Origin: Thiohalophilus thiocyanatoxydans
GTDB lineage: Bacteria > Pseudomonadota > Gammaproteobacteria > UBA6429 > Thiohalophilaceae
NCBI RefSeq assembly: GCF_004366735.1
Contig: NZ_SOQX01000002.1
Coordinates: forward strand, 62,001-126,000
Length of the DNA stretch: 64,000 nucleotides
Reading direction: 5' to 3'
The notes under the pieces are model-generated. The model saw nothing but the letters and a program-made list of their open reading frames with translations, was not told where the DNA came from and did not search any database. Positions within the stretch are counted from its first letter, which is position 1. Each line of letters starts with the position of its first letter. Of this stretch, positions 10,899 to 20,038 are shown piece after piece. Both the position numbers and the translations under genes were made by a program.

Positions 10899-10966
10899 AT
10901 ATCGATAATATCGATATTATAGTGCAAATAATATCGTTTGACTGCATTAGATGATACTTATATCGT
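10899..10966. promoter_or_regulatory. LysR operator array and dsrC-like promoter
   Basis: Bases 10899-10917 form a perfect 9-1-9 palindrome, ATATCGATA-A-TATCGATAT. Further ATATCG copies begin at 10931 and 10960, four in all. TTGACT (10938-10943) with a 17-base spacer to TATCGT (10961-10966) is a plausible promoter for the rightward gene, and the last motif overlaps its -10. This looks like a divergent control region for the LysR protein. Confidence 0.6.
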
Positions 10967-11009
10967 TTTTACTACATTAAATAGCGGTAAAGCAAAAGGA
11001 GATCCTTCC

Positions 11010-11342
11010 ATGACGACCATGACTGAACTGGAACGGGACAATGAAGGTTATTTGATCGACCCGGAGCAGTGGAACGAAGCGGTCGCCCAGGAACTGGCCG
11101 AGGAAGAGGGACTGGAGTTGGACGACACTTACCTTGCGGTACTCAAGTTCATGCGCCGCTACTGGGCCGAGCACCAGACAGCACCCGATGTGCGCCATGT
11201 GGTGGATTATCTGGTCAAGGAAGAAGGCTTTGACAAGAAAACGGCCAAGGCCCATCTGTTTGAGTTGTTCCCCTACGGCTACGTCAAGCAGGCCTGCAAG
11301 GTGGCCGGCATGATCAAGCCACGGGCCTGGAGTACCGGCTGA
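11010..11342 (+). CDS. DsrC/TusE-family protein lacking the penultimate cysteine
   Basis: Starting at the ATG at 11010 (AAGGAG about 8 bases upstream) the product is 110 residues and colinear with DsrC/TusE: EGYLIDPEQWNEAVA, then the helical core, then LFPYGYVKQACKVAGM. DsrC carries sulfur between C-terminal cysteines CysB and CysA, 11 residues apart, and TusE keeps only CysA. Here CysB is present (C96), but position 107, where CysA should stand, is Trp, and the tail ends RAWSTG. It therefore cannot form the DsrC trisulfide or act as TusE in the usual way. It may be a regulatory or accessory paralogue. Confidence 0.85.
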   Translation: MTTMTELERDNEGYLIDPEQWNEAVAQELAEEEGLELDDTYLAVLKFMRRYWAEHQTAPDVRHVVDYLVKEEGFDKKTAKAHLFELFPYGYVKQACKVAGMIKPRAWSTG

Positions 11343-11474: not shown

Positions 11475-11551
11475 TGGCGCCCCGATCAGGATTCGAACCT
11501 GAGACCTTCCCCTTAGGAGGGGGACGCTCTATCCAGCTGAGCTATCGGGGC
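11475..11551 (-). tRNA. tRNA-Arg (anticodon CCT)
   Basis: Read on the minus strand, a complete cloverleaf runs from GCCCCGATAGCTCAGC to GATCGGGGCG followed by an encoded CCA. The 7-base acceptor stem is GCCCCGA/TCGGGGC. The T-arm has GGTTCGAATCC, and the anticodon loop reads CTCCTAA, giving anticodon CCT for AGG codons. Length is 77 bases. Confidence 0.97.
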
Positions 11552-11990
11552 TGATGGCCGCAGATTGTAGCACTGCCGGAAAGGGAACCCAACGCGCACC
11601 GGTTCGATCCCCGCCTGCGACAGAACCTCCTCGCCTCGAGTCCGGATCAAGCAAGATTTACACTCACTCGAATCACATTCCGCCTGATTGAATTTTCCCC
11701 CGGGATGGACAAAAGAGCACCTGATTCCGCGGCCACCAGGAAGTGAATTTTATGCCGCACGCGGGGTTTTTGCGGGCACAGCGCACAAATTATTCAGTCA
11801 CTGACACGTTGCCGCTTTTCTATGTCGCAACATTCAGCGGGTGTTCTATACTTTGTTGAATAAGTAACTGATAAATAAAATAACCGCGGACATTCTGTGA
11901 TCCGCTTATCGGTTTTGCCCCGCTGAATGCCATTACCATGTCGTGTTGGAGCGAGCTTGTTCTGCTCGGATGTGATGCAAGGAGATAATA
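11552..11990. other. Long spacer with paired leader upstream of membrane gene
   Basis: No ORF is convincing here. From 11831 to 11929 there is nested pairing. CATTCAGCGGG (11831-11841) pairs perfectly with CCCGCTGAATG (11919-11929), and inside it GCGGA/TCCGC and AACCG/CGGTT can also pair. AAGGAG precedes the ATG at 11991. I could not place a good promoter, though TATACT is present at 11847. The first part, 11552-11820, shows nothing definite. Confidence 0.5.
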
Positions 11991-13427
11991 ATGCTAAACG
12001 AGATATTCATGATTGTACCCAGTATTCTTCTGAGTGCGCTGATCTGGTTCATCATTCTGAGTTTTGTTTTATGGGCCGCACGTACCCACGCGCATCGTAC
12101 TATCCGTTCATTCGGCCAGATTCTGCACGGCGCGCTGAGACTGACCTCGGCATCAATTATGCGCGCGGAGAGCCGCCTGCTGGAACGTAATCGTGAGGTG
12201 CTGCTGAATCAGGGGAGGGAAGCCGCCGAGCGTATTGTTGAAAGAGAGTTTGAGCGTATTGATGCAAGTGTACGCAAAGACCTGGCCGAGTATCCCTCCC
12301 TGCATCGTCAATTGAGTGAAGAGATCACCAAGATCGACGAAGATTACAAGGAGAGCACGGAAGTGCCGCCGGAACCCCCGGCCTGGGTCAAGGCTGTAGA
12401 AGCGGTGGCCAAAATTCCCACAACCAAGGGGGACCCGATGGTGGGCAATGTGCTCGAGGACATCCATCAGTCGCTGGTCAAGGCCAATACCCGGGCGCTG
12501 GAGGAGTATCGAAAGGCCAGCCACAAACGGCATCAATTGTTAAATAACATGATGCCGCACTGGCGCAACGTCAAGCAGATACTTGCCAAGGTCGACAAGA
12601 ACGTCAACAGTCTGTTGCAGCGTTCCGTCACAATCGATCGGCATATGGAAGAGTATGAAAATATCCAGAAACGCAGTAACCGTGCGTTGGAAATGTTGTC
12701 GTCCTCCTCTATTACCCAGTTCTTTGTCTCGGCTTTTGTGCTGGTTATTGCCATTGGCGGCGCCATGATTAACTTTAATCTGATCGCCCTGCCCATGTCG
12801 GAAATGGTCGGCGCCAAAAGCGAGATTATCGGCATGCCAACTTCGGATGTCGCCGCACTGGTGATCATCCTGGTTGAGATAGCCATGGGAATATTTCTGA
12901 TGGAGTCATTGCGGATTACGCGCCTGTTTCCGATCATAGGTGCATTGCCGGACAAAATGCGTGTGCGCATGATCTGGATAACCTTCACTATCCTGTTTGT
13001 GCTGGCCTCGGTCGAAGCGGGGCTGGCCTATATGCGTGAATGGCTGGTCGAAATGAAACAGGCCTCGATGCTGACAGGCGGTGAAGAGGCCGTGCAGGAC
13101 GGGTACTTGTGGATTACTACTGCCGCCCAGATGGGGCTGGGGTTTATGTTGCCTTTTGCGTTGGTGTTTGTGGCAATTCCACTGGAATCCTTTGTCCATT
13201 CGCTGCGCACGGTCCTGGGGATTCTGGGTGTCGCGTTGTTGCGCACTCTGGCCTGGCTGCTGCGGTTTGTGGGTAATATCGCCCGTTATGCCGCAAAAGT
13301 GCTGGAGAATGTCTACGATCTGTTGATTTTCGCGCCTTTGCTGATTGAACGACTACTTGCCACAGACCGCGAATCGAAAAAAAAAGACAGTCAAGGCAAA
13401 AAAGCTGACACTGCATCCGCATACTAA
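11991..13427 (+). CDS. Coiled-coil multi-pass membrane protein, unknown function
   Basis: A 478-residue inner-membrane protein I cannot assign to a family. One helix at residues 6-29 is followed by about 200 charged, largely helical residues (50-240) with coiled-coil character. Then come five helices, roughly 241-263, 284-305, 325-347, 372-397 and 404-425, and a Lys-rich cytoplasmic-looking tail (DRESKKKDSQGKK). The long hydrophilic part points to one side of the membrane like a sensor or scaffold. It lies 11 bases before a vWA-domain lipoprotein gene and both end at one strong terminator, so they form a two-gene operon. Confidence 0.75.
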   Translation: MLNEIFMIVPSILLSALIWFIILSFVLWAARTHAHRTIRSFGQILHGALRLTSASIMRAESRLLERNREVLLNQGREAAERIVEREFERIDASVRKDLAEYPSLHRQLSEEITKIDEDYKESTEVPPEPPAWVKAVEAVAKIPTTKGDPMVGNVLEDIHQSLVKANTRALEEYRKASHKRHQLLNNMMPHWRNVKQILAKVDKNVNSLLQRSVTIDRHMEEYENIQKRSNRALEMLSSSSITQFFVSAFVLVIAIGGAMINFNLIALPMSEMVGAKSEIIGMPTSDVAALVIILVEIAMGIFLMESLRITRLFPIIGALPDKMRVRMIWITFTILFVLASVEAGLAYMREWLVEMKQASMLTGGEEAVQDGYLWITTAAQMGLGFMLPFALVFVAIPLESFVHSLRTVLGILGVALLRTLAWLLRFVGNIARYAAKVLENVYDLLIFAPLLIERLLATDRESKKKDSQGKKADTASAY

Positions 13428-13438
13428 GGGAGAGTGGA

Positions 13439-14101
13439 ATGAAGAATAATCGTTTGCTTATAATGATGATGGTGGCTACTCTGGTCGTCGCCGGAGGTTG
13501 CTCTAGACACAATCAGGAACGGGATCACGGTGTCTATATGTTGCTTGATACCTCAGGTACCTATACAGAGCAATTGGGAGAAGCGCAGCGAATTATCAAT
13601 TATGTTCTGAGCGAGCTGGAGCCGGGGGATACCTTTGCGGTTGCCCGCATTGATACGGGCAGTTTCAGTGAAAAAGATATCGTGCACCGGCAAACCTTCG
13701 ATACACGCCCAAGTCAGGCCAATACACAGCGGCGTGTTTTTCGGGAAACCATCGACCAGTTTGTCAAGGAAGTTGAGCCGAGTTCCTATACTGATATCAC
13801 CGGGGGTATTCTGCAGGCAGTTGAACACCTCAACGAAGTTGGTCCGGGAAGTAAAACCATTTTAATTTTTTCGGACATGAAAGAAGATATCAAGGAAGGT
13901 TATGTCCGGGATATTGCATTGCAGCTTGACGGGTTTAATGTGGTTGCGTTAAACGTGATAAAACTGGCCAGTGACAATGTGGATCCACGGAAATACATGG
14001 ATCGTCTGGCCGAATGGGAAAAGCGCGTCGAGTCAGGCGGGGGGCAGTGGAAAATGGTCAATGACATGGAAAGACTGGAATCAGTGATGGAATTTGATTA
14101 A
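13439..14101 (+). CDS. vWA-domain lipoprotein
   Basis: A 220-residue protein with a lipoprotein signal: positive start, hydrophobic run, lipobox VVAGG-C21. The mature part is a von Willebrand factor A fold with the metal-ion-dependent adhesion site residues in place: D37-T-S39-G-T41 (family DxSxS), T118 in SYTDITGG, and D146 in IFSDM. GGGAGAG lies just before the ATG. It would sit in the periplasm anchored to a membrane, able to bind a partner through Mg2+. The natural partner is the coiled-coil membrane protein encoded just upstream. Confidence 0.8.
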   Translation: MKNNRLLIMMMVATLVVAGGCSRHNQERDHGVYMLLDTSGTYTEQLGEAQRIINYVLSELEPGDTFAVARIDTGSFSEKDIVHRQTFDTRPSQANTQRRVFRETIDQFVKEVEPSSYTDITGGILQAVEHLNEVGPGSKTILIFSDMKEDIKEGYVRDIALQLDGFNVVALNVIKLASDNVDPRKYMDRLAEWEKRVESGGGQWKMVNDMERLESVMEFD

Positions 14102-14128
14102 CTCACCGCTGCGCAAACAGCTCCTGAC

Positions 14129-14163
14129 GGGCCATCGGATTTCTTTCGGTGGCCCTTTTTTTA
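14129..14163 (+). terminator. Rho-independent terminator of the vWA operon
   Basis: GGGCCA (14129-14134) pairs with TGGCCC (14150-14155), with further A/T and C/G pairing inside, followed directly by a run of eight T. It closes the two-gene operon 28 bases after its last stop codon. Confidence 0.85.
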
Positions 14164-14334
14164 TCTCTTGACAGCTCTTTCGCGGTTCACACTGCATTGG
14201 CGACTCGCATTATCCCGCGTCGCGGAATCTTTTGGCCGGTCTACACATCCAGCGTCTTCGATGGTAACCTGAATGCAGGTCAAGTCCTGAGGCCTGGAGC
14301 CGACAGACTCTGGAGAGACAGTGGAAATAGCCTG

Positions 14335-14778
14335 ATGAGTCATACCATTGCACAGCATCGCCGGCAGCAACCCATGTGGTTCTACGAAAAGAACTACCGG
14401 TTTTTGCGCCAGTTGCTTCCCGATTTACCACAGGAACATGTCGGTCACTATCAGATCCGGCATGCGCAGCACCGGCTGGACATCCAGGTGGCTGAATTCG
14501 GCCCCTATACCCAGCTTTTGCAGTTGTCCCAGTGCTTTGAAGGCGTTTCATCCCTGGTATGTGATTTGCGTATGAGTGTGCGGGTCTATCATGACGCCAG
14601 GCTGGCCGAGGTGATCGGCTATCAGGGGGTCGAGCGGTTGCTGGCACGTTATGAATTGCCCAATGCCGGGATGTTATATCCTGACGAAAAACGTCAGGCA
14701 AATCTGTTGTTGCACGACTGGCTGGCCATGTTCATTAATCACGACAAACAGACTGACAAAACCGCCACAGTGTCATAA
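14335..14778 (+). CDS. DUF1249 family protein
   Basis: Read from the ATG at 14335 this is a 147-residue soluble protein of the DUF1249 family, common in gammaproteobacteria and of unknown function. Family-like parts are the N-terminal FYEKNYRFLRQLLPDL, the mid segment with VRVYHDARLAEVIGYQG, and the C-terminal DEKRQANLLLHDWL. Its own initiation region carries only a weak GGAAA. The open frame reaching back to 14149 runs through the preceding terminator and is not coding. No functional partner is next to it. Confidence 0.8.
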   Translation: MSHTIAQHRRQQPMWFYEKNYRFLRQLLPDLPQEHVGHYQIRHAQHRLDIQVAEFGPYTQLLQLSQCFEGVSSLVCDLRMSVRVYHDARLAEVIGYQGVERLLARYELPNAGMLYPDEKRQANLLLHDWLAMFINHDKQTDKTATVS

Positions 14779-15059: not shown

Positions 15060-15085
15060 CAAAATGTGTTAAAGATCACATTTTG
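15060..15085. promoter_or_regulatory. CRP-type binding site
   Basis: CAAAATGTG (15060-15068) and CACATTTTG (15077-15085) form a perfect 9-8-9 dyad. The core TGTGTTAAAGATCACA matches the CRP half-sites TGTGA/TCACA with only one base off, and the AAATGTG...CACATTT flanks equal the CRP consensus. It lies about 105 bases before the ankyrin-pmpAB unit. A CRP/Vfr-like regulator probably acts here, but no such gene is in the window. Confidence 0.6.
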
Positions 15086-15176
15086 TTCGCCGACAATTTA
15101 TCCAGAAGCACACATTTCGGGGAGTTTCGGCAATCGAGCCCGTCACCCGCTAACCGGCTTCCGGGGGGGGAATGCC

Positions 15177-15779
15177 ATGGGATGTTCACACGCTACCAAC
15201 TGTCAGCTCTATGCCCAGTTTGCCGCTGATGCATCACTGAAGCTATGGAAACAGCACTATTGCGAGAACGTTTTTGATCAGTGCGCCCGTTATCAGCTTG
15301 CGATGGAGGGCAGGCCGGTCCCGCTGACCCTGTTACCCAACGGCAAGATGGTCGAACGGCGCTCGAAGGAGCAGATCAGCGCCTCGGCGCTGTTTAACGC
15401 TATTCAGAAACAGCGGGTCGGCGTAGTTCGCTCGCTGATCAAGACCGGTATGTCCTCCTACGAACTCAAGACCGAGGAAGGTCTCAGCCCGCTGATGGCC
15501 GCGGTGGCGGTCGGCAATCCGGAACTGGTCAATCTGATGCTGGAATACGGTTGCGATCCTTATGCCACAAACCGGGAAGGGAAGCGTGCGATTGATATGG
15601 CTCAGGAAGCCGGTTTTAGCGAATGCCGCAATATTCTGAACAAATACATGGCGACCCATCCCGCTGAAAAAACAGCGCCAGCTTCCGGTAATCCCCCGCC
15701 GGAAGAGGCCGAGCCGGAAATGAACGAAGTCGTCGGGTTTTTACGTCGGTTTAATCCGTTTCGATCCAGGGAGACCTGA
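15177..15779 (+). CDS. Cys4 N-terminal motif plus ankyrin repeats
   Basis: A 200-residue soluble protein starting at the ATG at 15177, preceded by a G-rich tract. The first 55 residues hold four spaced cysteines, C3, C9, C29 and C36, in a pattern C-x5-C-x19-C-x6-C with LKLWKQHYC and CARYQLAMEG. This looks like a compact metal- or redox-binding unit. Residues about 75-160 hold ankyrin repeats (EGLSPLMAAVAVGNPELVNLMLEYG, NREGKRAIDMAQEAG). A Pro/Glu-rich linker and RRFNPF tail follow. It ends 3 bases before the YeeE/YedE gene, so it is probably tied to that transporter as a sensor or cytoplasmic partner. Confidence 0.8.
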   Translation: MGCSHATNCQLYAQFAADASLKLWKQHYCENVFDQCARYQLAMEGRPVPLTLLPNGKMVERRSKEQISASALFNAIQKQRVGVVRSLIKTGMSSYELKTEEGLSPLMAAVAVGNPELVNLMLEYGCDPYATNREGKRAIDMAQEAGFSECRNILNKYMATHPAEKTAPASGNPPPEEAEPEMNEVVGFLRRFNPFRSRET

Positions 15780-15782
15780 GAC

Positions 15783-16415
15783 ATGGCATATTGGCCCTGG
15801 TGGCTTGGTGCGCTGGCATTGGGCGGTGTCAGCATTGGTTATTTTCTGCTGATTGGCAAGCTGCTGGGTGTCTCCGGCAGCTGGGCCAAGGTGGTCGGCT
15901 GGAAGGAAGATCGCGAGCTGGGGCGTTCCGCCGCCGAGCTGGAGCAGGCGGACGAGGGTGAGATCGAAAACGCGCTGCTGGCGGCGACACTGGCCGAGTT
16001 TGGCGCCTCCGCCATGGACGAGAAAACCCCCGGCCAGGACGCCAGCGAGCCCGAGGAGGATGTGCCGACAGCGTCGACGACGGTCAGTTACACCCCCTGG
16101 ACCGCGCATCTGATCTTTTTGCTCGCCATGTTCGGCGGGGGGCTGATCGCCGCATTGACCAGCGGTCAGTTTGAACTCGAGTTTCAACTCAGTGATACCC
16201 ACAGCCGGATCTTTGGCGGGCCGCTGGAAATCTGGCTGTCACTGTTGTTCGGCGGCATGATGGTCGGGTTTGGGACTCAGATGGCAGGCGGCTGTACCTC
16301 CGGGCATGGCTTGAGCGGCTGCTCCCGCCTGATTCCCGCCAGTCTGTTATCCACCGTGGTCTTTATGCTCAGCGCTATCGGCCTGTCGTTATTGATGGAG
16401 GCGTCGATCGCATGA
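15783..16415 (+). CDS. YeeE/YedE-type sulfur transport protein, first half
   Basis: A 210-residue membrane protein. A first helix is followed by a charged, acidic linker of about 80 residues that is unusual for the family. Then come three helices carrying the YeeE/YedE signature GGCTSGHGLSG with its conserved cysteine. YeeE/YedE proteins move thiosulfate or related sulfur compounds across the inner membrane; in many sulfur oxidisers the transporter is split into two genes (PmpA/PmpB). The stop overlaps the next start by 4 bases, consistent with a two-part transporter. Confidence 0.85.
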   Translation: MAYWPWWLGALALGGVSIGYFLLIGKLLGVSGSWAKVVGWKEDRELGRSAAELEQADEGEIENALLAATLAEFGASAMDEKTPGQDASEPEEDVPTASTTVSYTPWTAHLIFLLAMFGGGLIAALTSGQFELEFQLSDTHSRIFGGPLEIWLSLLFGGMMVGFGTQMAGGCTSGHGLSGCSRLIPASLLSTVVFMLSAIGLSLLMEASIA

Positions 16416-16840
16416 AGCAATCCCGATTAAAAATGTATCTGTCGTATGGGCTGATTGGCGGTTTGATGGGCTACGTCGTTGCGCGTATCGGCTTCGGCGA
16501 CTATGACGAGTTACACCAGATGTTCGTGTTGGATGACCTGCGTATGCTGTATGCCTTTGCCGGTGCCGTGGCATTGTCGATGCTGGCGTTTATCCTGCTG
16601 GCCCGGCGAATCCCCAAACCGGAAAAATTCTTTCAGCCCGGCACGGTCCCCGGAAGCATGCTTTTCGGTTTTGGCTGGGCCGTCTGCGGCGCCTGCCCGA
16701 GCATGGTTTTCGTTCAGCTGGGTGCCGGCAAGATTCCCGCGGTGATGACCATGGTAGGTATCCTCCTTGGCGTCTATTTGCACAAGAAGGCGCACGCCCG
16801 TTACTTCCGCTGGGATACTGGCACTTGTGTCAGTGATTAA
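16412..16840 (+). CDS. YeeE/YedE-type sulfur transport protein, second half
   Basis: A 142-residue membrane protein with four predicted helices and the second family motif, LFGFGWAVCGACPSMVFVQLGAG, whose cysteines mirror the GGCTSGHG motif of its partner. Together the two proteins give one full YeeE/YedE fold. The ATG overlaps the upstream gene (ATGA). With the Cys4-ankyrin gene this makes a three-gene operon, consistent with uptake or removal of sulfur compounds next to the Sox pathway. No terminator was seen after it. Confidence 0.87.
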   Translation: MKQSRLKMYLSYGLIGGLMGYVVARIGFGDYDELHQMFVLDDLRMLYAFAGAVALSMLAFILLARRIPKPEKFFQPGTVPGSMLFGFGWAVCGACPSMVFVQLGAGKIPAVMTMVGILLGVYLHKKAHARYFRWDTGTCVSD

Positions 16841-19674: not shown

Positions 19675-20038
19675 TGGTGGAGGCGGCGGGAATCGAACCC
19701 GCGTCCGCAAGTCCTCTGCCATCGGCTCTACATGCTTATCCGCGTCTATTGTTTTAACCGGCAGCAACCCGACGGGCAGGGCCAACTGACGGCGATTCCG
19801 GTTAGGTTTTAACGTCGCGGCCCCGGACGAGCTTTGACGCGATCCTGTGAGATATGACCCCTGGAATCTGAACGCACAGGCACGGCTTCAGTCAGAGGGC
19901 ACCCTACCGGGTTTTAAGCGGCGAGTGCGTAGTTGTCGTCGTTGGCAACTATATTTTTGCAGATGGATTTACGAGGAAACCTGCATCCTCGGCATGCACC
20001 TCCGGTTTCGCAACCCACGTCGAATCCAGGTCGCCCCC
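19675..20038 (-). ncRNA. ssrA: tmRNA (SsrA)
   Basis: Trans-translation RNA that rescues stalled ribosomes together with SmpB. On the minus strand the 5' end GGGGGCGACCTGGATTCGACG pairs as acceptor with the 3' end CGCCTCC-ACCA, giving a 364-base RNA. The 3' T-arm reads GCGGGTTCGATTCCCGC. The 5' conserved part GGTGCATGCCGAGG is present. The tag reading frame encodes A-NDDNYALAA followed by TAA, the usual gammaproteobacterial tag. It lies directly downstream of smpB on the same strand. Confidence 0.97.

Follow-up and report, generated by a model that had tools for sequence, protein, structure and literature searches.

A conserved gene pair encoding a membrane protein outside the families searched and a predicted vWA lipoprotein in Thiohalophilus thiocyanatoxydans

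vWA lipoproteins are already known and several have been characterised, among them CglB of Myxococcus xanthus gliding and Bd0875 of Bdellovibrio. CglB is functionally tied to an inner-membrane complex and works as one component of a roughly 20-protein assembly that has a motor of its own (PMC12288465; PMC12282271), while Bd0875 and related Bdellovibrio MIDAS lipoproteins carry a MIDAS vWA domain behind a lipobox, with a function that depends on the MIDAS residues (PMC11003981). In FtsZl1-vWA operons a vWA protein is found with lineage-specific membrane proteins (PMC2875224). Two further systems are similar in part: LiaFSR, in which the accessory membrane protein LiaF controls the intramembrane-type kinase LiaS, a kinase with almost no extracytoplasmic part (PMC3543457), and alpha2-delta of voltage-gated calcium channels, in which a membrane-anchored MIDAS vWA domain acts on a multi-TM partner (PMC6231325).

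Here we describe a gene pair within a 64,000-nucleotide stretch of the Thiohalophilus thiocyanatoxydans genome (the window), in which a gene for a predicted inner-membrane protein (A) is followed directly by one for a predicted vWA lipoprotein (B). Unlike CglB, which we compared by description and not by sequence, B has a single partner, in which no motor homology can be recognised, and no accompanying motility set; Bd0875 has an extra beta-rich domain and a cap, whereas B consists of a vWA domain only and has a dedicated membrane partner. The likeness to LiaFSR considered here is one of arrangement, with the differences that the A-B pair includes a vWA lipoprotein and that the kinase is missing from most A-B genomes; alpha2-delta is eukaryotic and multi-domain, and shares only the common vWA fold with B. 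Identity with the FtsZl1-vWA system was rejected, as a PF13809 search of the organism's own genome gave no match while the controls scored. The initial annotation had recognised no described system of such composition, and none is present in the libraries searched: A has no match among the families and folds searched, B matches the general vWA fold, and neither the A family nor the A-B pairing is contained in these libraries. A search of open-licence papers likewise found no description of such a pair.

Layout of the gene pair and its surroundings

The two reading frames reported initially, for a 478-residue protein and for a lipoprotein 11 nt behind it, were both recovered (Table 1), with ribosome-binding sites rated good ahead of each (AAGGAG for A and GGGAG for B). 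The strong terminator reported to follow them also stands: a terminator scan places the stem at 14129-14155, followed by T7, and the RNA fold has an energy of -25.1 kcal/mol with z = -4.25. About 150 nt ahead of A are strongly conserved in a pairwise alignment with locus L030 of G001, the sole same-genus genome searched, and this conservation runs from a TCTATACT box (a possible -10) to the A start codon, which is consistent with a promoter belonging to the pair itself. A sigma-70 consensus scan of the region ahead of A called no promoter, and the leader matches no Rfam family. A small inverted repeat (GCGGAC...GATCCGC) lies in the leader at 11880-11960 (+) and is present in both genomes of the genus.

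Table 1. Features of the A-B unit and of the linked two-component genes
Feature	Coordinates	Strand	Content or basis
Gene A	11991..13427	+	ORF, 478-aa predicted inner-membrane protein
Predicted domain plan of A	TM1 (residues 11-31), cytoplasmic helical/coiled domain (32-242), TM2-TM5 (243-400), probable amphipathic C-terminal helix		Alignments, hydropathy, charge
TM3-TM5 core of A, residues 285-400	12843..13190	+	Glu296, Glu305, Glu342, Arg349, Glu399
Gene B	13439..14101	+	ORF, 220-aa predicted vWA lipoprotein; lipobox Cys21; DxSxT / T118 / D146
Intrinsic terminator closing the A-B unit	14129..14162	+	11-bp stem, 5-nt loop, T7
Leader/promoter region of the A-B unit	11846..11990	+	Alignment with same-genus genome
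Regulator and kinase with almost no periplasmic part	L103 4925-7395; L099 6392-8881; also L045, L095, L096, L102	- (L103, L099)	

Upstream of the pair are a tRNA-Arg (cct) gene at 11475-11551 (-) and a gene for a DsrC-like protein at 10938-11342 (+), assigned with Pfam. Downstream are a DUF1249 (YqiB-like) gene at 14308-14778 (+), an ankyrin-repeat protein gene at 15066-15779 (+) that is common to the window and the same-genus genome, two membrane proteins at 15783-16840 (+) that are YeeE/YedE-like by eye and, farther on, a tmRNA gene at 19675-20038 (-). The DsrC-like and YeeE/YedE-like genes hint at sulfur metabolism. In most relatives of the window's family the DUF1249 gene is also directly 3' of the pair, usually with a Sel1/SPOR-like gene next after it; the window has no such gene.

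Conservation and predicted structure of the two proteins

The lipobox Cys21 of B is invariant among 69 homologues, 67 of which pass the lipobox rule, and from its signal peptide and lipobox Cys B is predicted to be a bacterial lipoprotein. The MIDAS site described as intact in the initial annotation is conserved throughout the family, with D37, S39, T41, T118 and D146 kept at 94-100% in the alignment of the 69 homologues. Thr occupies the third position of the first metal-site loop in 65 of the 69, giving DxSxT as compared to the textbook DxSxS. B has a MIDAS-type site, with putative metal binding. The AlphaFold model of B (pLDDT 89.1) aligns with solved vWA domains at a VIA Z of about 16 and an rmsd of 2.6-2.8 over about 160-166 residues, the alpha2-delta vWA domain being among the structural matches, and 16 of 24 B homologues match VWA_2 (Pfam) with a best value of 6e-7. 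The window's B itself falls below every Pfam cut-off; as modelled, it is a true vWA fold.

The commonest +2 residue of B is Ser (38 of 67 homologues), with Asp in seven, and the tether between lipid anchor and first strand is about 13 residues. The E. coli +2 sorting rule would route most B proteins to the outer membrane, and that rule may not hold in these lineages. With the rule favouring the outer membrane for most B and the tether being short, direct contact between A and B is not a given.

Searches with A against Pfam, NCBIfam, PADLOC and PHROG returned no family above cut-off, and PDB sequences gave no convincing match. About six helices had been counted initially. Hydropathy averaged over the family predicts five TMs, at approximately 11-31, 243-263, 285-305, 326-346 and 373-400, and a further, Arg-containing stretch near 407-427 is more likely amphipathic. 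Between TM1 and TM2 is a charged region of about 210 residues (32-242), which is predicted by the positive-inside rule to be cytoplasmic together with the loop at 306-325, placing the loops at 264-284 and 347-372 in the periplasm. The AlphaFold model contains long helices at 31-99 and 149-226, and its pLDDT of 78.9 and pTM of 0.52 make the helix arrangement unreliable, so that negative fold searches with A prove nothing; the best Foldseek match has an E of 0.09 (Smc coiled coil, TTYH), and VIA matches have Z below 10 and rmsd up to 37, a meaningless level for long helices.

Conservation within A is concentrated in the membrane. Among 83 homologues the majority frequency is 0.75 in TM5 and 0.72 in TM3, compared to 0.55 in the helical domain, and individual charged residues are close to invariant: Glu296, at the centre of TM3, is present in 75 homologues, Glu305 in 76 (the remainder having Asp), Glu342, within TM4, in 77, Arg349 in 80 and Glu399 in 81. 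Because TM3 and TM5 are the best-conserved parts, we argue that A acts in the membrane and is more than a scaffold. The scaffold role proposed initially is therefore doubtful, as the conserved core consists of membrane helices with near-invariant charged residues and not of the putative coiled coil. There is a real chance that A represents a new class of membrane protein.

Several candidate relationships of A were considered and set aside. DUF7341 is matched with an E of 6e-5, under the cut-off, by seven of 25 homologues and over part of the helical domain only, and was not accepted as homology. A match of the A profile to AT1R has an E of 8e-4 in one construct and 0.1 in others, and was put down to composition. 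An internal repeat relating TM2-3 to TM4-5, suggested by 'ES...R' motifs seen by eye, was rejected when profile comparison matched only the residues common to overlapping cuts. No likeness to TolQ/MotA-type motors was seen in Pfam, NCBIfam or the PDB, where homology below the detection limit is possible.

Distribution of the pair and its genomic neighbours

A is present in 39 of 58 near relatives and in 54 of 369 genomes sampled across the class, representing about 34 families, and it also occurs in a second class of the phylum, in many members of one family (f198) and a few others. B was found in 51 of the same 369 genomes. A co-occurrence survey had been set beforehand as a test of the pairing, and it showed that, among the 82 distinct A loci whose downstream sequence is long enough, 74 have B as the very next gene, often with reading frames that touch or overlap, and that B is present in 49 of the 54 A genomes. 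The A-B pair is a genuine unit, conserved far beyond chance.

The eight A loci that lack B comprise seven from the most distant branch and a single closer one (L147). At two of these seven, A is followed by a B-sized lipoprotein without the first MIDAS loop (L120, 8695-9333, -; L123, 10499-11146, +); these are possibly metal-free forms of B, to which their homology is putative. In one second-class genome (G407, contig C7, approximately 253488-254902) A is in pieces with several in-frame TGA codons, and it appears that A can decay or that the assembly is faulty there. Plasmids contain no copies of A or B, and a search of phages with A alone found none; a mobile-element origin of the pair was rejected on this absence of plasmid or phage relatives.

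Outside the window's family the pair is in some genomes adjoined by genes for a response regulator, with a receiver and a Trans_reg_C-like domain, and a kinase with HATPase_c. A search of the 369 class genomes with a cut-off of E below 1e-30 identified the regulator in 13 genomes of ten families, all 13 of which carry A, and in none of the sampled genomes without A. The regulator is within 158-1861 nt of A in 11 of the 13, and 4.6 and 7.3 kb away in the other two. The naive probability that all 13 would fall among the 54 A genomes is 4e-12, a figure that shared ancestry makes too small. Three regulator-kinase gene orders occur (divergent upstream, downstream co-directed and upstream co-directed), showing that the link is not one frozen arrangement. 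In four of five kinases examined the two N-terminal TMs are only about 8-20 residues apart. In the linked kinase Pfam identifies HATPase_c but no HisKA domain. A TM pair with a very short extracytoplasmic loop is an established mark of intramembrane-sensing kinases. Since 41 of the 54 A genomes, including the window's own, lack the regulator at E below 1e-30, the linked kinase is not the general output of A-B. The two-component system might also merely control expression of A-B, as both directions fit the gene order.

A different neighbourhood is seen within the window's family, where in 13-14 of about 20 relatives fliA, together with che or fli genes, directly precedes the pair; fliA itself comes after che genes or a fliE-fliK cluster, and the DUF1249 gene is downstream of the pair. 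The che, fli and fliA genes were identified by reading the sequences, and FliG was confirmed with a Pfam model. The gap between fliA and the pair is 145-739 nt, so the pair is probably transcribed from a promoter of its own. The fliA context does not extend beyond the family, and the window's genus has neither fliA at the pair nor FliG in the genome. Eleven near-complete genomes have A without FliG (G000, G001, G047, G055, G117, G186, G212, G236, G264, G291 and G334), including single-contig genomes with 99-100% completeness, and because such genomes keep A we conclude that the pair does not belong to the flagellar system and reject its assignment as a flagellar gene pair. FliG is present in 43 of 53 further A genomes, a raw count of A genomes only and without a matched control, and the pair may have a role shared with motile cells.

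Envelope sensing and the alternatives to it

We favour, with a probability of about 0.38, the interpretation that A and B are the two subunits of an envelope-sensing module. It builds on the gene pair, the vWA fold, the metal-site residues, the lipobox, the predicted TM layout and the regulator-kinase linkage, from which we infer the metal binding, the ligand, the A-B contact, the output and the direction of signalling. B would be lipid-anchored with its vWA domain binding a divalent metal, and through the metal it would bind either a ligand or the loops that A exposes to the periplasm. A would lie in the inner membrane, where its TM2-TM5 bundle may relay the bound or unbound state to the cytoplasmic helical domain. 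For ten families, the dedicated two-component system would receive this output; its kinase, with a very short periplasmic loop, probably needs a membrane partner in order to sense, and LiaS with LiaF is a precedent for such control. In the window's lineage, where the kinase is absent, the output would have to go elsewhere. The envelope sensing suggested in the initial annotation thus gains indirect support from the two-component genes linked to the pair in those ten families.

The main rival is that A is an ion channel or transporter with B as its lipid-anchored auxiliary subunit, the two-component system regulating only expression of the channel. This is somewhat unlikely, although the strong conservation of TM3 and TM5, the position of Glu296 and Glu342 in the membrane and the near-invariant Glu399 and Arg349 would suit it, as would the presence among the structural matches of B of the vWA domain of alpha2-delta, which supports channel trafficking (PMC6231325). 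However, a match to alpha2-delta is to be expected of any vWA domain, helix packing or signalling would also account for conserved Glu residues close to the ends of TMs, A matches no channel or transporter family or fold searched, and an internal TM repeat in A is unsupported. The fliA-proximal position in the window's family and the preference of the +2 rule for the outer membrane point instead to surface motility or attachment, with B as a CglB-like surface adhesin, A as its inner-membrane partner and the flagellar and chemotaxis neighbourhood reflecting that role; CglB itself is an adhesin of the vWA lipoprotein kind with which a machine in the inner membrane engages (PMC12288465). Such a role is possible, but less likely than either envelope sensing or a channel, and we consider it quite unlikely given the 145-739 nt gap to fliA and the probable separate promoter, the FliG-free genomes and the absence of the fliA context outside the family, and the composition of B, which is a vWA domain alone with no export partner seen.

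It is distinctly unlikely that the pair is a factor for assembly or quality control of lipoproteins or another membrane complex in the envelope, in which B would be a clamp in the periplasm and A a platform in the membrane, under envelope-stress two-component control. vWA domains do often work in the assembly of multi-subunit complexes, FtsZl1-vWA operons have been proposed to act in membrane remodelling (PMC2875224), and the kinase and regulator resemble envelope-stress types, in general terms only; but no client gene is conserved beside the pair across families, and FtsZl1 (PF13809) is absent from the window's genome. A phage-defence system, the other role raised initially, is very improbable. 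vWA proteins do occur in conflict systems (PMC7159879), in no way that is specific to the A-B pair, whereas the PADLOC search gave one partial match for B at the noise level (E 0.011) and none for A, no phage or plasmid copies and no defence neighbours were seen, and the distribution is broad, with a stable chromosomal site within the family.

Extending the envelope-sensing interpretation, A-B might found a so far unrecognised class, either of membrane receptors or of gated membrane proteins, in bacteria. In such a class an integrin-like vWA lipoprotein that depends on metal would control an inner-membrane protein with five helices, a new fold and conserved acidic residues within the membrane, and in ten families the signal would pass through a kinase unable to sense alone; in this full form the proposal is speculative and, on present evidence, unlikely to hold. 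The A family itself spans about 34 families of one class as well as a second class, and yet has no name, domain model or structure match. It is firmly coupled to a lipoprotein with a metal site and, over part of its distribution, to signalling genes of its own. Should the module indeed sense the envelope, bacterial envelope biology would gain a sensor resembling integrins, and the signal could be sought with the linked regulator as a ready reporter.
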